Of a DNA stretch of 24,151 nucleotides, positions 4,039 to 23,464 are shown in pieces; the stretch's first letter is position 1; every line of letters begins with the position of its first letter. The notes under the pieces were generated by a model that did no database searches, had not been told where the DNA came from, and saw nothing but the letters and a program-made list of their open reading frames with translations. Source of the stretch: a virus. The position numbers and the translations under genes are program-made. Location of the stretch: positions 1 to 24,151 of the IMG/VR virus record IMGVR_UViG_3300044502_000009. One strand, 5' to 3'.

Positions 4039-5659
4039 AAACGAACTGCCGCTGACATTCGACGCGCGCACAGCCTGGCAGATTCCGATACTCCAAGACA
4101 ACGCACCGCAACAAGTCTTCATGAAATGCAGCCAGGTCGGCGTCACGGTCATCGCGATTGTGAACATGATGATCCTGCTGTACAACGGCCTGCCCGGCAT
4201 CTACGTGCTGCCGACCGGCGTCGCCATGTACGACTTCGTCAAGGGCCGCATCGATCCGATGTTGTCCGGCGTCCCGTTCTATCGTCGCCACTATGCCACC
4301 GAAAAGGAAGACGCCAGCGGCGCGCGAATGAAGACGATCTTCAAGCGCCGGGTGAAATTTGCCGGCAGCAACGTGCGCAACAGTTTCTTCGAGATGCCCG
4401 CTGGCTGGTATATCGTCGACGAATGGGATCGCTGCGATCGCGCGAACCTGGACTATCTGGAAGACCGTATCAGTCGCGCCGACGTCAAGATTCGTTTCAA
4501 GATTGGCAACCCGACGTTTAACAAGACCGGCATCCACGCCGAATATCTGGCCAGCGATCAGGAGCAATGGCTGGTGAAATGTCCATCATGCAACCGACGC
4601 CAGCCCTTGACCTGGTTTGAGAATGTCGTCCGCCAGGTCGGGCGGCGTCGGTATGTTCTGCGCGATCGGACGATGCAGATGCAGCTGAATGAACTGGCCA
4701 ACAAACAAGGACCAGACGTGGCCGTCCAGGTGCTGGCCACCGAATGCGAACAGACCGCCACCGATGCCCGCATCTTTTGCAGCAATCCGGCATGCGCCAG
4801 GCCGATCGACCGGCACAGTCCAGGGGAGTGGGTCCCGGCGTTTTCCGATCGGCCGGTGCATGGCCGCCATATAAACAAGATATTCGGTGATCCGACTGCT
4901 GGCGCGATCGTGAACGTCCTGAAGAAACAGATACTGAGCCAGCACGATCCGACGCTGCGCCAGCGCTGGTTCAACAACGACCTGGGCCTGCCCTATGAAG
5001 AACAGGGCAGCCGGGTCACCGACCAGCTGCTGGCTGACGCTGCGGCCGATTATGAATTCCCGCATCAGTTGCCCTTCCAGATACTGCAGCACGACTTCAC
5101 GCAATCGGTCATGGGTGTCGACGTCGGCACGACCATGCACGTCCATATTTCCGGCGTCTACGTCCACGAATACAAGATACACCGGGTGAAGCTGTTCATC
5201 GGCCAGGTGGAAGACCCGGAACAGCTGTGGGACCTGATAACGCGCTACAATGTGACCGCCGGAGTGATCGACGCCATGCCGGAGACGCGCATGTCCCGGA
5301 ACTTCGCGAAGGCGCGGCCTGGTTTCTGGATGGCGTATTACAGCAAGCAAGACCAGAAGATCGACCACGTTCGGGACAAGAAGAAGAAGACGATCTCGCT
5401 GAACCGGACCGAAGCGCTGGACGCGTCGCTGGCCGATTATGATGCGGGCCTGGTGACTCTCCCGATGAACTGGCGATCGCTTGACGGCGGGAAATTCGCC
5501 GAACAGATGAAGGCACCGACCAGGGCATTCAGCGACGAACATGGTCGCATCGAATGGTCGAAATGCGAAGACCACCACAGACACGCCGACACCTACGAAT
5601 ACTGGGCGGCCAGGCTGCCCGGGGCGACAACCTGGGGCGGAATGAAAGGATCGATGTGA
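3893..5659 (+). CDS. terL: Terminase large subunit, GpA-type ATPase/nuclease
   Basis: The motor that drives DNA into the procapsid and cuts it. Numbering from ATG 3893 (588 aa): an adenine-side/Walker A-like KCSQVGVT at 78-85, Walker B IVDEWDR at 174-180, a zinc-ribbon with CPSC at 230-233 and CSNPAC at 296-301, then a RNase H-like nuclease with MGVDVG (D410), VID (D460) and HRHAD (D566). The lack of a classical GKS/T loop and the Cys pairs are typical of the GpA (lambda-like) terminase family. The start is uncertain: 3893 has GGAG 10 bases upstream but overlaps terS by 146 bases; ATG 3950 and TTG 3962-3964 are alternatives that shorten the overlap. The stop overlaps the portal ATG as TGATG. 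Confidence 0.93.
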   Translation: MSSVNLLRGPKLTEVASSVMLSPDLVSLIGTQLAEQPKYGWAAYIHRTENELPLTFDARTAWQIPILQDNAPQQVFMKCSQVGVTVIAIVNMMILLYNGLPGIYVLPTGVAMYDFVKGRIDPMLSGVPFYRRHYATEKEDASGARMKTIFKRRVKFAGSNVRNSFFEMPAGWYIVDEWDRCDRANLDYLEDRISRADVKIRFKIGNPTFNKTGIHAEYLASDQEQWLVKCPSCNRRQPLTWFENVVRQVGRRRYVLRDRTMQMQLNELANKQGPDVAVQVLATECEQTATDARIFCSNPACARPIDRHSPGEWVPAFSDRPVHGRHINKIFGDPTAGAIVNVLKKQILSQHDPTLRQRWFNNDLGLPYEEQGSRVTDQLLADAAADYEFPHQLPFQILQHDFTQSVMGVDVGTTMHVHISGVYVHEYKIHRVKLFIGQVEDPEQLWDLITRYNVTAGVIDAMPETRMSRNFAKARPGFWMAYYSKQDQKIDHVRDKKKKTISLNRTEALDASLADYDAGLVTLPMNWRSLDGGKFAEQMKAPTRAFSDEHGRIEWSKCEDHHRHADTYEYWAARLPGATTWGGMKGSM

Positions 5660-8037
5660 TGGCGTCATTCTTGCGGGAAATGGCAGCGCTGGCCCGATAC
5701 AGAGTCGGCATCGCGGCGACCAGGGCGAAGATGACATACGACTGGCTGCAATCCTACAACAGCCAGATGGGAACGGCGTCCGGCGCTTCGTCGCCGATGA
5801 TTAACCGCCAGATGCAGGGCCTGATCGAGCGCGAAGATGTCAACCTGGCCACCTGCGTCCGGATCGTCGCCGACGAAATGGCCTGGCTGCCGCTGCTGGT
5901 CATGTACGAAGACACAGACAGCCGGGGGAACCGGGTCCTGATCCCGGACAATGAGCATCCCTTCCGGCAGCTGTGGCGCAATCCGCACCCGCAGCACACG
6001 ACGTCCGAAATCACCAAACACCTGGTGGCATCACTGTTGACGACTGGCTGCGGTTTCCTGGCGCGCAGCGATCGGGAAGATATGCCGAAGCGGCGCTCGA
6101 GGCGCAGCATCGACGCCACTGCGCAGCAGCTGAAGCCTAAGCCGTCGTGGCGGATGTTCATCCGATCAGATGAAGACAAAGACCGCATCCTGGGATTCAC
6201 CGAACGCCTGGACCTGGGGCGGGAACGTCTGTGGGACGTGGAGAACATCGTCTACGCGCGACTCTACAACATAAACGACCCGCTTTACGGCCGGTCCGGC
6301 GTCGAACCGCTGAAGCGCGACTTCTGGACTGAATACCAGGCCGAGATGATGTTGCTGGCGCACTTCGCGAACGACGGCACACCACGCGCCATCTTCTCGC
6401 CCGCTGAAGGGATCGACCCGGTCCAGCAGAAACAACTGGAAGAATACTACCGGAACCGCGCGAACCCGGACGACAAGAATCGCCTGCAGATCGCGCCGGT
6501 CCCGGGCGAATTCCACACGATCCAGCCGACGATGGTCGAGATGGAATTCCAGAAGATGCGGAGCTTTCATCGCGAACGGACGTACAGCCTGTTAGGCATC
6601 CCGCCGGGCATCGGTGGCGTGTGGGATCATGCACACTATGCGAACGCGGCCGTTCAGGAGTCCAGCTACTGGCGGCACACGATGATTCCGCTGTGCTGTC
6701 TGCTGGCCGACATCCTGACGCGCCAGCTGCTGGCCAGGATCGAACCCGATCCAAACTACCTGCTGATGCACGACCTGTCCGGCGTCGAAGCGCTTCGCAG
6801 CGATGCGCTGAAGCAAGCCAGGACGGCCGTCACTGTCTCGGGTGGCGCGGTCCTGACTCCGAACGAAGCGCGGCAGCAATTCTATAACCTGGAACCGCTT
6901 GAAGGCGGCGACGAACTCCGAAAACAGGTGAGCACTTTACCCGGGACGAATAACTCCGGGAACGGTGACGGCAGCGCCCAGGCCGACAGCCAGGACGCAG
7001 CTGAAGACGATGACAGCAAGTCCAGCCCGATGCTGAAGCAAGTCTCGAGCCTGGGCATCCAGGTCCAAGACATCACGATCAGCAAGGGGATGCGCCGGGT
7101 GCTGCGGCAACTTCCGACCGATCGCAAGGTGGCGATTATCACCAGGAACACCATCGGCGACGTGGTCCAGCAGACCGAAGTGGATGACGGCATCTTCCAG
7201 AAGGCGCGCGCAGACATCGACGCCAGGATCGCCAAGAACGAAAACAGGATCGCGAAACCGATGAAGGGCTTCTTCGCCGATCAGCTGGATCGGGTCCTGG
7301 ATGCGCTGGATCGGGTCACCGTCGAAGGCGCGTATATGACCGGCCTGTATGCGGTCATCGGCAAGGCTGGCAAGATCGACCCGAACAACCTGGAGAACTT
7401 CCTGGACATCGCGGCCGAAAAGGAACTGCTGGCGAAACTGTTCGAGCCGATCATCGTGGAACTGGTCGAAGAATTCGGCGCGGAAGAAGTTGCGAACGCG
7501 ATCGCGGCCGGTGGCATCGGCGTGGAATTCGACGTCCGGAATCCGAAGTTGCAGGCGGCCGTCCAGAACCGGATCAACAAGATCACCAGCACCGCCGAGA
7601 CAACCTTCCGGGACATCCGGCGCATCCTGATGTCCGGTTACACGCACAGCCTGGGAGTCGATGAAGTGGCGCAGATGATCCGCGACAAGTTTGCGGAATA
7701 TCGCATCAGTCGGTCGCTGCTGATCGCCCGGACGGAAATGACCGGCATCAGCAATACGGCGTCGCGGATGGCGTGGAGCCAGGCCGGAGCGACCCACAAG
7801 ATATGGGTCGCCACGCAGGACAGCTTGACGCGCGACTATCATGTGCAATACAATGGGGAGCGCGTGAAGATCGACGGCTACTTCGTGAACGGACCCGAGC
7901 CGATGTTCGAGCCTGGCGATGCGAAGGCAACGCTGGCCAGCAATGTCTGCAACTGCCGGTGTACGATGATTTACGACTTCAATCCCGTCGATTACATGAA
8001 CGAAACGCTGGCCGAAGCTGACCAGCTAACCGAATAG
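5659..8037 (+). CDS. Portal protein fused to MuF-type head morphogenesis domain
   Basis: A 792-aa fusion. Residues 1 to about 430 are an HK97-like portal (NDPLYGRSGVEPL, then GIPPGIGG near 313 and a helix-rich clip/wing region ending with TPNEARQQF), the ring that forms the DNA channel at one capsid vertex. A Ser/Asp-rich linker follows (about 430-460). The C-terminal part ends in a MuF (phage Mu F-like) domain: RTEMTGISN at 691, W..TQD..TRDYH at 716-728 and a Cys cluster CNCRC at 764-768. MuF proteins are minor head proteins that often enter the capsid and may be injected. I chose ATG 5659, which overlaps the terL stop and has AAAGGA 9 bases upstream; the frame is open further back but only inside terL. 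Portal and MuF are usually separate adjacent genes. Confidence 0.9.
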   Translation: MASFLREMAALARYRVGIAATRAKMTYDWLQSYNSQMGTASGASSPMINRQMQGLIEREDVNLATCVRIVADEMAWLPLLVMYEDTDSRGNRVLIPDNEHPFRQLWRNPHPQHTTSEITKHLVASLLTTGCGFLARSDREDMPKRRSRRSIDATAQQLKPKPSWRMFIRSDEDKDRILGFTERLDLGRERLWDVENIVYARLYNINDPLYGRSGVEPLKRDFWTEYQAEMMLLAHFANDGTPRAIFSPAEGIDPVQQKQLEEYYRNRANPDDKNRLQIAPVPGEFHTIQPTMVEMEFQKMRSFHRERTYSLLGIPPGIGGVWDHAHYANAAVQESSYWRHTMIPLCCLLADILTRQLLARIEPDPNYLLMHDLSGVEALRSDALKQARTAVTVSGGAVLTPNEARQQFYNLEPLEGGDELRKQVSTLPGTNNSGNGDGSAQADSQDAAEDDDSKSSPMLKQVSSLGIQVQDITISKGMRRVLRQLPTDRKVAIITRNTIGDVVQQTEVDDGIFQKARADIDARIAKNENRIAKPMKGFFADQLDRVLDALDRVTVEGAYMTGLYAVIGKAGKIDPNNLENFLDIAAEKELLAKLFEPIIVELVEEFGAEEVANAIAAGGIGVEFDVRNPKLQAAVQNRINKITSTAETTFRDIRRILMSGYTHSLGVDEVAQMIRDKFAEYRISRSLLIARTEMTGISNTASRMAWSQAGATHKIWVATQDSLTRDYHVQYNGERVKIDGYFVNGPEPMFEPGDAKATLASNVCNCRCTMIYDFNPVDYMNETLAEADQLTE

Positions 8038-8049
8038 GAAAGGATGACG

Positions 8050-10359
8050 ATGGAACCAGACCTGGAACAGTTAGTCGAACGGTTTAACGGCCTGGGCGGG
8101 ATGCCCTGGCTGAACCAGCCGAAGACGACGAAGGACGCGCTGAGTCGATACACGCAGCTGTTCCTGAATGAAGGCGGGCGGTCATGCCATCACAAGGATG
8201 ACGCCGATCAGGGGCAGATCGTCTACAAGGCCTGCCCGATCCAGCTGGAAACGAAGACGGCCGACGACGGGGCGACCGAATTCGTCATTCGCGGATGGGC
8301 ATCGACGTCCGACAAGGACCTGGACGACGACATCATCCTGCCGACAGCCTTCCAGTCATCGCTGGCGAAATTCATGGCGCAGGGCCGGATGCTGTTCATG
8401 CACGACTGGTGGGCGCTGCCGGTCGGGAAATGGGACACCGCCGAAATCCGCGACAAGGGGCTGTGGATGGAGCGCGGCATCATCGCGCCGACCACGATGG
8501 GCCTGGACCTTCAGATACTGATCGGCATGAAGGCGATCAATACGCTGTCGGTCGGTTTCCGGGTGCTGAAGGATGAATTCAACTATGACACCGGCATCCG
8601 CACGATCACCGACCTGGACTTGCTGGAAGTGTCAATCGTGAACATTCCGGCGAATCCGAACGCGGTGTTCGAAATGGCGAAAACTAAGAACCTGAAGTCA
8701 CTTATACCAAACCGGTCCGGGAACGGATCGCAGAAAGGAAAGGGGAATACGATGGACCCTGAACTGTTGAAAGTCATCACCGCGATGTCCGAGCGCTACG
8801 ATGTTACGGCCGGACCGGTGGCCGACAGGCTGGCGAAGATGTCCACCACAGTGGACAACATCAACCGCATCCTGACCGCAGTGAAGGCCCAGGCCGACAG
8901 GTCACTGGACCCGAAGGATGCGGCCACGAAGGCCGACCTGCTGCAATTCATGGATAACACCAAAGCCGACATCACCGGCCTGGTGGCGGACATGAAGACA
9001 TTGCAGGCTGCGAAGAAGGAAGACGGGCTCGAGAAGATGATCGTGACCGACTGGCGGGCGATGCTGTCGAAGGGCATCTTCGTGCGCGACGTGAACGGCA
9101 AGGCGCTGTCCACTGCGCACCAGAAGGCCTTCCGCATCCTGAACCTGCCGGTGGACTTCGACAAGTCCGAACATGGTCCGGTCATCAAAGCCGCGCGCAA
9201 CCTGAACGACGTCACGATGATCCAGGACGCCTTCTTCCGGAAGACCGGCAAGGGACCCGGCGGCGGTCAGTATCAGGGGATGCACACCCTTGAGTCCTTC
9301 CAGAAACTGGCCGAAGTCATGGAAATCCTGGACCCGGAACTGGGCGCGTCGATGAAGGCGATGTACACCGGCGGCACCGGCCTGGGCCTGGAATGGATTC
9401 CGACCATCTTCTCTGGCGAATTCGACACGCTGTACCGCCTGCGGCCGACGCTGGTGAACTATCTGCGCCCGGCCTGGCAGATGCCGTCGGCGACGGCCAA
9501 GTGGCCAATCCTGTCCGGTGCTGCGACCGCTTACCTGGCGGACGAAGCGGCGACGAACAACCCGGCGGTCCTGCTGAAGTCCAATCTGACGACCGCAGTC
9601 GTCACCTTCGTGGCCAGGACGCTGGCGACCGCCATCCCGGTGTCGCGTCAGCTGCTGGAAGACTCCATCGTCGACGTGGCGATGGTGATCCGCGAAGAAC
9701 TGGCGATCGCGCTGGCCGAAGCTGAGGAAAACGCGGACATCAATGGCGACAACAGCACCACGCACTTCGACACCGGTCTGTCGCTGACCAGCGCCAGCAC
9801 CGATGTCCGGGTCGCCTGGAAGGGCCTGCGCAAGATTGCCGTCGGTCTGTCGAACAACTGGGACAGCCAGTCGGCGACCGCTGGCGTCGGTGACGGCACC
9901 ACTGCCTTCGCTGCGCAGGACGTCCGGTACAACCGGCAGAAACTGGGCATCCTGGGCCTGAACCCGGCCGAGTGTTTGCACATCGCCAGCATCGGCGCTT
10001 ACTACAAGGCGCTGGCATTCACGCAGGTGACGAAGGCGAACGAATTCGGGTACCAGTCGACCTGGCTGTCCGGAACGCTGCCCGCCCTGGACGGCGTGGA
10101 GATTTATATCTCCGGCCACATGGGTGAGAACTTGAACGCCAGCGGCATCTACGACGCCAGCACGACCAACAACACCGGATGGCTGACGCTGCACCGCCGG
10201 TCGTTTATGCCGGGCGAAAAGCGCGGCGTCAATCTGGAATTCGAGTACAACGCGGAAGTGCAGCAGTGGCTGTTCATTTCCACGATGCGGCGCGACTTCC
10301 AGAACATGCGGCCGTCGACGCAGCTGCCGGTCGCTTACGCCTATAATATCGACAACTAG
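8050..10359 (+). CDS. Prohead protease fused to scaffold and major capsid protein
   Basis: A 769-aa polyprotein from ATG 8050, chosen over ATG 8044 because GGAAAGG (8037-8043) sits 6 bases before it. Residues about 55-215 are a caudoviral HK97-type serine protease: catalytic His118 in FMHDWWALPVGKW, Ser167 in NTLSVGF, and a possible third residue E193 in LLEVSIVNIP. A Gly/Lys linker (about 222-234) leads to a charged helical region (about 235-330) resembling the HK97 delta/scaffold domain, then an HK97-fold capsid protein to the end. The protease would cut away itself and the scaffold during maturation. An internal ribosome binding site and ATG 8752 lie at the junction, so the capsid part can also be made alone. 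Separate protease and capsid genes are the usual state. Confidence 0.9.
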   Translation: MEPDLEQLVERFNGLGGMPWLNQPKTTKDALSRYTQLFLNEGGRSCHHKDDADQGQIVYKACPIQLETKTADDGATEFVIRGWASTSDKDLDDDIILPTAFQSSLAKFMAQGRMLFMHDWWALPVGKWDTAEIRDKGLWMERGIIAPTTMGLDLQILIGMKAINTLSVGFRVLKDEFNYDTGIRTITDLDLLEVSIVNIPANPNAVFEMAKTKNLKSLIPNRSGNGSQKGKGNTMDPELLKVITAMSERYDVTAGPVADRLAKMSTTVDNINRILTAVKAQADRSLDPKDAATKADLLQFMDNTKADITGLVADMKTLQAAKKEDGLEKMIVTDWRAMLSKGIFVRDVNGKALSTAHQKAFRILNLPVDFDKSEHGPVIKAARNLNDVTMIQDAFFRKTGKGPGGGQYQGMHTLESFQKLAEVMEILDPELGASMKAMYTGGTGLGLEWIPTIFSGEFDTLYRLRPTLVNYLRPAWQMPSATAKWPILSGAATAYLADEAATNNPAVLLKSNLTTAVVTFVARTLATAIPVSRQLLEDSIVDVAMVIREELAIALAEAEENADINGDNSTTHFDTGLSLTSASTDVRVAWKGLRKIAVGLSNNWDSQSATAGVGDGTTAFAAQDVRYNRQKLGILGLNPAECLHIASIGAYYKALAFTQVTKANEFGYQSTWLSGTLPALDGVEIYISGHMGENLNASGIYDASTTNNTGWLTLHRRSFMPGEKRGVNLEFEYNAEVQQWLFISTMRRDFQNMRPSTQLPVAYAYNIDN
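8732..8754 (+). promoter_or_regulatory. Internal ribosome binding site and start for the capsid protein
   Basis: AAAGGAAAGGGG lies at 8734-8745 and ends 6 bases before ATG 8752, in frame with the protease ORF. It is at least as strong as the site in front of the whole ORF (AGGAAAGG). It falls exactly at the domain junction, and in the fusion it is read as the low-complexity linker Q-K-G-K-G-N. These features fit a nested start rather than chance. Confidence 0.7.
8752..10359 (+). CDS. Major capsid protein precursor (nested in-frame product)
   Basis: Initiation at ATG 8752 would give a 535-aa capsid precursor without the protease. Residues 1 to about 100 are a charged helical delta-like region (VADRLAKMSTTVDNINRIL, KADLLQFMDNTKADI) that would act as internal scaffold. 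The rest resembles an HK97-fold shell protein: an N-arm, a segment with GGTGLGLEWIPT near 205-215, the P-domain helices (REELAIALAEAEENADINGD, the usual homotetrad before an extended loop) and a C-terminal A-domain ending in a short Asn/Tyr tail. The virion needs hundreds of capsid copies but few protease copies, so independent high-level initiation here makes sense. I cannot locate the maturation cleavage site or tell whether HK97-type crosslinks form. Confidence 0.72.
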   Translation: MDPELLKVITAMSERYDVTAGPVADRLAKMSTTVDNINRILTAVKAQADRSLDPKDAATKADLLQFMDNTKADITGLVADMKTLQAAKKEDGLEKMIVTDWRAMLSKGIFVRDVNGKALSTAHQKAFRILNLPVDFDKSEHGPVIKAARNLNDVTMIQDAFFRKTGKGPGGGQYQGMHTLESFQKLAEVMEILDPELGASMKAMYTGGTGLGLEWIPTIFSGEFDTLYRLRPTLVNYLRPAWQMPSATAKWPILSGAATAYLADEAATNNPAVLLKSNLTTAVVTFVARTLATAIPVSRQLLEDSIVDVAMVIREELAIALAEAEENADINGDNSTTHFDTGLSLTSASTDVRVAWKGLRKIAVGLSNNWDSQSATAGVGDGTTAFAAQDVRYNRQKLGILGLNPAECLHIASIGAYYKALAFTQVTKANEFGYQSTWLSGTLPALDGVEIYISGHMGENLNASGIYDASTTNNTGWLTLHRRSFMPGEKRGVNLEFEYNAEVQQWLFISTMRRDFQNMRPSTQLPVAYAYNIDN

Positions 10360-10710: not shown

Positions 10711-10736
10711 GCGCCGGATCGGTGACGGTCCGGCGC
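10711..10736 (+). terminator. Strong GC hairpin between head genes, without T-run
   Basis: GCGCCGGATC at 10711-10720 pairs with GGTCCGGCGC at 10727-10736 (10 bp including one G-T wobble) across the 6-base loop GGTGAC. The sequence after it is AAACCTTAAA, so there is no T-tract and it is not a standard intrinsic terminator. It could be an mRNA 3' stabiliser, a processing site or an attenuator separating highly expressed capsid genes from the connectors. Confidence 0.4.
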
Positions 10737-10766: not shown

Positions 10767-11189
10767 ATGGCGAAGACAAAGAAGATCGCATTCAAGTCCA
10801 CCGATCAGATGCAGGTCTATGATGATCGGCCGCGACTGTGGATACACGGCGACATCAGGGAGATCGACGAAACGAAGGCGGCCTATCTGTTGAAGACCTT
10901 CCCGGACAACTTTTTTCCGGCCGAGTCTTTTCAGAAGATGCTGGCGGATGATCGTCGCAAAGAGGAACGCGAAGCGCGCGCGAAACTTGAGGAGCGCTTC
11001 GGTCCCGGGTCATCGTCCAGCACCACAGACGGCAATGGTGCTGAACTGGACCCGGCCATAGCCGCCAAGCTGGACCCGAAGGAAGTGGATCTGTGGAAGA
11101 TCGCGGCGAAGAAGGTCGACGACGGCGTCGAACTGAACGCCGACGAAAAGAAGATCATGGCCAAAGTCGACAAACTGATCGAAGGATAG
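10767..11189 (+). CDS. Hypothetical head-region protein, 140 aa
   Basis: A highly charged protein. The N-terminal 60 residues (IAFKSTDQMQVY, WIHGDIREIDETKAAYLLKTFP) resemble small domains seen at this position in other phages, where a residue-rich motif ends in LL..FP..F. A Lys/Arg/Glu-rich helix (about 58-78), a Ser/Gly linker (about 80-92) and a C-terminal acidic helical hairpin follow. It is probably soluble and may assist head completion, judged only from its place between the capsid and connector genes. ACGGAG 9 bases before the ATG supports the start. The next gene begins 9 bases after its stop. Confidence 0.65.
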   Translation: MAKTKKIAFKSTDQMQVYDDRPRLWIHGDIREIDETKAAYLLKTFPDNFFPAESFQKMLADDRRKEEREARAKLEERFGPGSSSSTTDGNGAELDPAIAAKLDPKEVDLWKIAAKKVDDGVELNADEKKIMAKVDKLIEG

Positions 11190-11792: not shown

Positions 11793-12193
11793 TCCAGGTG
11801 AACGTCAGCATCACGCCGACCGAATGGAAGGCCTGCCGAAAGTGGCGCGAGTCATTCAAGTCGAATATGACGGACGCCATGTGGCGCGCTCTGAACGCGC
11901 TGCACACGCGCATTCGCCTGAACCTGTCGGGACCCAGCCACACGAAATTCCCGGGCAATGGCAATCCCTTCCCGGGTGTCGTCACCGGCCGACTGCGCAA
12001 CAGCGTCACCGCGCAGCTGTCAAGCTACGGCACCGAATTCCGGGGGATCGTCGGGCCTGATGTCTGGTATGCGGTCAACCACGAACTCGGGCGCGGCGTC
12101 CCGATGCGGCCGTACCTAGCGCCCGCCTTCCGGAAGGAGCGCCAGTACGTGCGCCGGGTGCTGGAAATGGCCATCAAGGAGTCGTTCGAATGA
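11789..12193 (+). CDS. Tail-completion / head-tail joining protein, gp10-like
   Basis: A 134-aa protein with a helical N-terminus and the motif series VVTGRLRNSVTAQL, IVGPDVWYAVNHELG, MRPYLAPAFRK. This order (T-G-x-L-R-x-S, then a V-G-P...Y-A...H-E-x-G step, then R-P-(Y/F)-L-x-P-A) is characteristic of the HK97 gp10 / phage virion morphogenesis family that joins the tail to the filled head. It is the second of three genes linked by ATGA overlaps (11789, 12190), so connector, completion and terminator-like proteins are probably made together. Confidence 0.82.
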   Translation: MIQVNVSITPTEWKACRKWRESFKSNMTDAMWRALNALHTRIRLNLSGPSHTKFPGNGNPFPGVVTGRLRNSVTAQLSSYGTEFRGIVGPDVWYAVNHELGRGVPMRPYLAPAFRKERQYVRRVLEMAIKESFE

Positions 12194-21692: not shown

Positions 21693-22232
21693 ATGCCGAT
21701 CCAAGAAACCGACGTTCTGCTGAAGCTGTCCACGAAGTCGGGCTCGGCCGGAAACTCGCTGACGAGCACACCGGCGGCAAGCCTGGGCAAGTATATCAGC
21801 CAGACCGAACTGGTCAGCGCCAGTTTGCACAACCTGTTCGACGTCGTGACCGGTGACGAGAATGCCGCCAGCGATGTCGAATACCGGTGCATCTTCGTCC
21901 ACAACAACCACGCCACGCTGACGCATTTCAGCGTCGTCGCCTGGCTGGTGTCCGAAGCGTCCGGCGGTTGTAGTATCGCGGTCGCGGTCGACGGTGTGGC
22001 GGCCAGCGTCATCGGATCGGCCAGCGCGCAGGCTGACGAAGTGGCAACCGAATCCGTCGCGCCAACAGGTGAAACCTTTTCGTCGCCGTCGTCGAAAGTC
22101 ACCGGCATCAGCCTGGGCGACATCCCGGCCGGACAGTGCAAAGCGCTGTGGGTCCGGCGGACCGCTGCGGCATCAGCTGCGAAGGACTCGGACGACGTCT
22201 ACATCCGGGTCGAGGGAGATACCGGCGAATGA
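21693..22232 (+). CDS. Tail-tip / fibre-associated protein, 179 aa
   Basis: A soluble, beta-rich protein with a strong ribosome binding site (AAAGGAG upstream). Its pattern TELVSASLHNLFDVVTGDENAASDVEYRCIFVHNNHATLT is typical, from memory, of small structural proteins found after the tail hub in many GC-rich and marine-type phages. I recognise no catalytic residue. It probably belongs to the tail tip or fibre set. Its stop overlaps the next start as ATGA, so it is coupled to the signal-peptide protein that follows. Confidence 0.6.
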   Translation: MPIQETDVLLKLSTKSGSAGNSLTSTPAASLGKYISQTELVSASLHNLFDVVTGDENAASDVEYRCIFVHNNHATLTHFSVVAWLVSEASGGCSIAVAVDGVAASVIGSASAQADEVATESVAPTGETFSSPSSKVTGISLGDIPAGQCKALWVRRTAAASAAKDSDDVYIRVEGDTGE

Positions 22233-23464
22233 AGTGGCCCATTATCATCCTGCTGCTGTCGACACTAGGATCCGATTTGTCGGCGGCCGAAGTGATCGAA
22301 CTGAACCGGGCCTTTTCGACCGGGGTCAGGACGTACAGCCAGGGCATCCCGCGCGAAGCGATCACCGCATCAGCGTCGGATTCTGAGCGCGTGACGATGA
22401 CCCAAAGCAGCGCCGGATACTACGGCATCGCGGCGGTGCGCATATACACCGATCATTTCCAGACGCTGGCTGATTCCGGATTCACGTCGTCAGCAGGAGT
22501 CGGTTTTTACATCGGTGACCACGCCCACCACACAGAGCGTCATGACACGATCATCGTCGTCGGGCCGCGCGGTGATGGGAAATGGTGGGCGCGGTTTACC
22601 GTCTTTGCCGACGACTTCACCTTCTTGGATTCCGGTTTGATCGACTCCGCTGGACAGGCTGACAGCCAGGGCGAAGTGGAATGGTTTGGGCATACCGACT
22701 CCGTCATCGTCCTGGGCCGGAACCCGGATGATATGGATGTCTGGTACTGGCTGTCGCAGAACAACGGTGCGAGCTATGCTTCGCAGGGCCACATGTACGC
22801 GTATGATCTTGACACCCGGGTCGAAATCGACCAGTGGGGCGACTCGCTGTATGCGGTCGTCTTTCGTGGTGTCACGCCTTTCGGCTATTACTTCCACCCG
22901 TTTGGTGGCACCTGGGGAACTCGGGAAACGATCAGCACCGGGACTTCATTCACACGCCTGTACGCTGCATCCGAAGGCCGCGATAAGTGGGTCCATGTCA
23001 TGTGGACCGACTATTCCAATCCGACGCACGTCATCCACGCCCGGCGCGATCCCGTCGCGCAGACCTGGGCGCTAGACACGCCATACACTGCGCCCGGGCA
23101 GGTACTGACGAACGGCGGCGAACTCTGGCCCGCGCTCTGTTATTCCAGGTGGGACGCAAAGTTGCGGGCCTTCTATTCGGTCCCGAGTGAAACGAATGCC
23201 GACAGCGGTGCGATCCTGGTCGAGCGCATCTGGAATTACACGACGGCCGCCTGGGGCGATCCGGACACGATCAGCAGCGCCGGGTCGGACTATGTCAGCA
23301 ATCTTGCGGGCTGTCGTGACGTCCCGGCGATCCATCATTCGCGCGCCTACATCGAATTCAATGAACGGGTCAGCGGCACGACCACGACGCGGCACATGGT
23401 CTTGGCGGATTCAGCTGCGGCGCAATATCCGGAGCCTGAAAGGAACAAGGTGATGGCCCGATGA
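22229..23464 (+). CDS. Exported beta-propeller-like protein
   Basis: A 411-aa protein whose start is set at ATG 22229, which overlaps the previous stop (ATGA) and follows GGAG. It begins with a Sec-type signal peptide: MK, hydrophobic core PIIILLLSTLG, and a likely cleavage after S-A-A at residues 18-20. The rest shows about six repeats of the form D-x-hydrophobic-x-V...Y/W...W (starting near residues 106, 157, 203, 247, 295 and 350), as expected for a six-bladed beta-propeller, and an Asp-box-like SQNNGASY at 176-183 as in sialidase-type propellers. I see no confirmed active site. It may bind or trim surface glycans. A signal peptide is unusual for a tail-region protein and points to export from the infected cell. 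Confidence 0.55.
   Translation: MKWPIIILLLSTLGSDLSAAEVIELNRAFSTGVRTYSQGIPREAITASASDSERVTMTQSSAGYYGIAAVRIYTDHFQTLADSGFTSSAGVGFYIGDHAHHTERHDTIIVVGPRGDGKWWARFTVFADDFTFLDSGLIDSAGQADSQGEVEWFGHTDSVIVLGRNPDDMDVWYWLSQNNGASYASQGHMYAYDLDTRVEIDQWGDSLYAVVFRGVTPFGYYFHPFGGTWGTRETISTGTSFTRLYAASEGRDKWVHVMWTDYSNPTHVIHARRDPVAQTWALDTPYTAPGQVLTNGGELWPALCYSRWDAKLRAFYSVPSETNADSGAILVERIWNYTTAAWGDPDTISSAGSDYVSNLAGCRDVPAIHHSRAYIEFNERVSGTTTTRHMVLADSAAAQYPEPERNKVMAR

Follow-up and report, generated by a model that had tools for sequence, protein, structure and literature searches.

The protease–capsid gene and its putative internal start

The window, as we call the whole analysed stretch of 24,151 nucleotides (positions 1 to 24,151 of IMG/VR virus record IMGVR_UViG_3300044502_000009), carries an open reading frame without interruption on the plus strand at positions 8044–10359. 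Its translation is 771 aa long from ATG 8044 and 769 aa long from the better-placed ATG 8050. The Shine–Dalgarno (SD) sequence of this start, AGGAAAGG (8036–8043, plus strand), lies 6 nt before ATG 8050 and overlaps the stop codon of the portal gene (8035–8037). The SD duplex scored −5.4 at ATG 8050 and −4.2 at ATG 8044.

The encoded protein is an S78 prohead protease joined to an HK97-type capsid protein. The protease domain (8245–8682, plus strand; residues 68–213) matched PF04586 with 76 bits against a cut-off of 21 (E 3.7e-21) and TIGR01543 with 74 bits against a cut-off of 59 (residues 88–213). For the capsid part, PF05065 gave 46 bits against a cut-off of 24.2 (E 5.8e-12) and TIGR01554, the major capsid protein model, gave 52 bits against 27.5; the PF05065 match was limited to residues 452–573, and the capsid half was poorly modelled by AlphaFold2. 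NF045541, the model for prohead protease/major capsid fusions, gave the window protein 30.1 bits, below its cut-off of 525. The full-length AlphaFold2 model had a mean pLDDT of 47 and was good only for the protease, where pLDDT was about 70–92. Residues 215–270, the stretch holding the internal start, stayed below 50, and helices were predicted at low confidence at 258–287 and 290–323. The preliminary description had spoken of a delta/capsid part; the capsid assignment holds, while the delta domain is plausible only, the two helices being compatible with such a region.

Between the two domains lies a linker (8683–8751, plus strand; residues 214–236) that is predicted to be disordered and holds the internal ribosome-binding site. 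The SD run AAAGGAAAGGGG occupies 8734–8745 on the plus strand, is read within QKGKG in the fusion, and ends 6 nt before the in-frame ATG at 8752–8754 (codon 237 of 771). This ATG is the putative start of a nested capsid gene (8752–10359, plus strand; 535 aa), predicted to encode a delta-like helical N-terminal region followed by the HK97-fold capsid domain. The sequence of the run, its 6-nt gap and the in-frame ATG had all been described correctly before; the beginning of the run had been placed at 8732 and is corrected here. Likewise, the placement exactly at the junction was borne out, as the site follows the PF04586 match, precedes the PF05065 match and falls in the low-pLDDT stretch.

The anti-SD duplex energy at ATG 8752 was −7.8 kcal/mol, the best among the 53 ATG, GTG and TTG codons of the reading frame and the 8th among the 407 ATGs on the plus strand in any frame. 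It was on par with good gene starts of the window at 12190, 18292 and 21390 (−8.0, −7.9 and −7.9, respectively). A search for the AAAGGAAAGGGG site with up to 3 mismatches found one match in the window, where 0.01 was expected. A start of gene quality thus sits inside what is modelled as a flexible linker joining the two domains. CCCU downstream of the SD can pair with its GGGG in a weak hairpin.

Side observations concern two other genes of the window. The gene at 5554–8037 encodes a portal protein and a Mu gpF/SPP1 gp7-like minor head domain in a single product of 827 aa and, in contrast to the protease–capsid fusion, has no strong SD–ATG between its domains. The gene at 22136–23464 probably starts at ATG 22229 (codon 32), because the SD there (−8.5) is much stronger than that of the listed GTG start.

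An SD-like sequence in a Lys/Gly-rich linker may also be read as a by-product of its codons. On this reading the linker peptide itself, as a flexible segment or a cleavage site, would be the conserved thing; AAR-GGN and AAR-GAG codons create SD-like DNA automatically, and synonymous-codon resampling of the window linker gave a mean of −6.7 against the observed −7.8 (p 0.24). The window-only resampling is uninformative because Lys and Gly codons yield an SD regardless. Searches of viral and genome contigs with the fusion protein gave no close relative of the window gene, and a terminase search of the viral contigs gave none of the window; conservation is therefore shown only against proteins about 15–27% identical. 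Across the fusions the linkers are diverse (KPQEGND, TIRKESR, SAALEGA, RLTRQTS, IEKGENN and SAEQEAS), whereas the SD and its spacing are constant, residues change while the SD stays, and the ATG always follows. We therefore consider the by-product explanation very unlikely.

Recurrence of the internal SD–ATG in distant fusions

A search of 289 genomes of one bacterial class with the window protein recovered further S78–capsid fusions, seven of which were confirmed with Pfam along with those of PAJU2 and Arya. In a comparison of 34 diverse S78 fusions, the window and the Arya type included, all 34 had an in-frame ATG no more than 60 aa past the protease. When SD strength was ranked against all in-frame ATGs downstream of the protease-domain start, the linker ATG had the strongest SD in 21 of the 34, against 3.9 expected, and none of 20,000 simulations reached 21. 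In the Arya-like family the ATG was kept in 7 of 7 members and the SD was weak in two of them (L269 MQ-4 and L274 FoX3). Fusions with a ClpP protease (mEp043, Fels-1, LESphi2, F10 and two prophages) had an SD and an in-frame ATG at the junction in 6 of 6 cases; their junction peptides show little variation, which makes constraint on the protein inseparable there from constraint on the RNA. By sequence comparison, nearly all distant protease–capsid fusions examined thus appear to share the same internal-start arrangement at their junctions.

The PAJU2-like family allowed fused and split genes to be compared. Salmonella phage FSL SP-016 encodes a 644-aa fusion that is 27% identical to the window protein and has the junction AAAAAAGGAAACAATACGATG. 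By way of FSL SP-016, PAJU2 and a Rhizobium phage, 186 two-domain loci were gathered: 19 are split, and the 167 fused ones fall into 22 clusters at 70% identity. Every one of the 167 fusions has an in-frame ATG where the capsid part starts, preceded by an SD of AAGG or better. In the split loci the protease has its own stop codon, and the separate capsid gene starts with an SD and an ATG (TTG in one) at the position homologous to the internal start. Mean SD values were −7.3 at the internal ATG of the fused loci and −7.0 at the capsid starts of the split loci. A tree of 36 representatives required 7 changes between the fused and split states, at least 5 of which were forced by well-supported branches. 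Protease and capsid have thus been joined or parted repeatedly in this family, with the capsid start retained every time.

These changes of state bear on a second alternative, in which the fusion is the sole product, the protease cleaves itself and removes the delta domain in the procapsid, and the internal SD–ATG is an unused relic of an ancestral split gene. Because fused and split forms change into each other, a recent fusion could carry such a relic, and the window gene is isolated, with a synonymous test of its own that is not significant. However, the internal site is kept in every fused clade of the PAJU2-like family, long all-fused branches included, and the SD–ATG junction arrangement recurs in four distantly related fusion sets. 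A relic would also be expected to decay, whereas the SD bases resist synonymous change, as described below. Taken together, we regard an unused relic as unlikely, if somewhat less so than the by-product explanation, and favour an internal start that is in use.

Further side observations concern individual loci. In the linkers of L185 and L139, a terminator-like hairpin followed by a T-run lies in frame within the fused gene (for example CCCGCC-ACT-GGCGGG-TTTTTTT). Similar terminator-like hairpins lie between the protease and capsid genes of the split loci L140 and L147. In L090 (Stenotrophomonas phage SOVA965), the annotation breaks the capsid gene at 1181–2586 into two pieces that overlap and lie in different frames. 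This may be genuine recoding or a frameshift in the record.

Nucleotide constraint and hairpins near the junction

The preliminary description had proposed asking whether the ribosome-binding site and ATG are conserved beyond what the protein sequence needs, and in the distant homologues the answer was positive. Besides the presence of the site in all PAJU2-like fusions and the homologous starts of the split capsid genes, synonymous diversity was low at the SD. In the SP-016-type cluster (76 distinct sequences) it was 0.10 against a gene mean of 0.42, and in the PAJU2-type cluster (22 distinct sequences) it was 0.07 against 0.43, corresponding to the 1.5 and 0.7 percentiles, respectively. The effect was weaker in a third cluster of 12 distinct sequences (9.9 percentile). 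Residue −5 of the PAJU2 cluster is E, Q or L (GAG, CAG or CTG), yet the SD keeps its AG-GAG-G bases throughout. Synonymous-codon resampling over clusters gave a weak result (Fisher p 0.035) because the SD already follows from the choice of amino acids, and within-cluster synonymous diversity was used instead. In these relatives, the SD bases are under constraint beyond the needs of the protein.

A stem-loop of the form NNNG-GCGYNN-CNNN was found 39–75 nt upstream of the internal ATG in 166 of the 167 PAJU2-like fusions (for example L115, L078, L157, L186 and L089), against a background of 0.11 per kb. The stems covary (CCCG/CGGG, GCCG/CGGC, GCTG/CAGC, ACCG/CGGT and GCGG/CCGC); aligned sequences were picked for a perfect stem, which biases the percentage of pairing, while the frequency across all fusions is unbiased. 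One pair links two codons at their third positions; it occurs as C-G in 49, U-A in 40 and G-C in 2 distinct sequences. Cluster L189 preserves the hairpin at the DNA level despite a one-base shift of the reading frame. This silent wobble covariation and frame-independent retention mark the hairpin as an element of the RNA (or DNA), not a motif of the peptide. Rfam searches of the window and of 16 fused loci returned no known RNA family, and the hairpin itself matched none. It may tune internal initiation or make the capsid portion of the mRNA more stable.

Of the 14 split loci included in the tree, only L109 and L166 had the hairpin near the capsid start, and both lie inside fused clades; the split locus L181 has a match far upstream, within the protease. 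A tree-aware analysis of the association between hairpin and fusion had too few informative pairs for significance. The NNNG-GCGYNN-CNNN hairpin was absent from the window linker and from the other fusion types.

The window has a different hairpin just 5' of the internal SD, CGGUCCG-GGAA-CGGAUCG (8713–8730, plus strand). It was not significantly more stable than its shuffles (z −1.57, 12 of 200), and we do not claim a functional hairpin upstream of the SD in the window. A second GNRA hairpin, CGGAUCG-GUGA-CGGUCCG, lies at 10715–10732 upstream of the start at 10767; the stem sequences of the two hairpins, upstream of starts 8752 and 10767, are exchanged.

Two probable nested products and relation to known systems

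The nested start proposed in the preliminary description is strongly supported by the SD strength in the window and by recurrence and constraint in relatives. The reading frame at 8050–10359 probably holds two in-frame nested genes, encoding the fusion from 8050 and the capsid protein alone from 8752. From the comparisons above, it is most likely that such fusion genes make both a full-length fusion and a capsid protein alone. Ribosomes initiating at 8050 would produce the protease–linker–delta–capsid fusion, and those initiating at 8752 on the stronger SD would produce the capsid protein alone. The site at 8752 would then serve as the normal start of the capsid gene and stay in use although no stop codon parts protease from capsid, as in the distant relatives, which alternate between fused and split forms yet always keep the capsid start.

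We infer that this phage makes both products, in some ratio, and that co-assembly delivers the protease. That the inner start has the better SD (−7.8 versus −5.4) suggests production of more capsid protein than fusion. The ratio could be altered by occupancy of the inner start by elongating ribosomes, by coupling to the portal gene and by the GGGG–CCCU pairing. In line with the rare fusion and abundant capsid protein proposed in the preliminary description, the fusion would bring in the protease, probably making up a small share of the procapsid subunits, and the capsid-only protein would form most of the shell. Co-assembly of the fusion as a protease carrier is plausible and not obligatory; in the PAJU2-like family covalent co-assembly appears dispensable, because split relatives work with a free protease.

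Phage lambda C/Nu3 has its scaffold gene nested in frame within that of the protease, and a further gene encodes the capsid protein. As in the window, lambda C/Nu3 and Mu I/Z have one reading frame with two same-frame starts, a shared C-terminal part, a protease in the long product only and an SD before the internal start. Their inner product is a separate scaffold, whereas that of the window would be the capsid protein itself. The likeness to C/Nu3 drawn in the preliminary description therefore holds for the logic of nesting and not for the nature of the inner product. The Mu-type arrangement, with an SD and spacer before the internal start, has been described in Mu-like phages of P. aeruginosa (PMC4378225).

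The fusions of PAJU2, FSL SP-016, JLK-2012 and RHph_X2_26 share with the window an S78 protease, an HK97 capsid and an SD–ATG at the junction; they differ in being about 15–27% identical and in having the upstream hairpin, which the window lacks. Their records annotate a single product, and PAJU2 ORF003 is annotated as 'prohead protease fused capsid protein'. The capsid gene of Gifsy-2, as Effantin reportedly described in 2010, is tripartite, a single gene that combines a protease, a middle region and a capsid part, and we take Gifsy-2 to belong with NF045541 (F10/mEp043-type ClpP–capsid fusions). The Gifsy-2 and F10/mEp043-type fusions resemble the window in joining protease, middle region and capsid in a single gene, and their protease is ClpP-like, unlike the S78 protease of the window. 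Protease–capsid fusions (PAJU2 annotation, NF045541) and in-frame internal starts in Mu-like protease genes were thus already known. In the open-access literature, we found no account of an internal capsid start in protease–capsid fusions, nor of its recurrence across families.

As a tentative generalisation, which we put at somewhat under even chances, tailed phages may have recurrently evolved a general nesting of the capsid gene in a protease fusion, in which annotated fusions are mostly expressed from the inner start, the fusion serves as protease carrier and the PAJU2-like linker hairpin tunes the ratio. If this is true, the N-terminus now annotated for the major capsid protein would need correcting in many phages and prophages. 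Protease and capsid would be seen to fuse and separate reversibly, with the capsid start retained in every case. The dosage of protease in the procapsid is a real question of assembly; if the fusions are nested gene pairs, its answer would be encoded in the start site.
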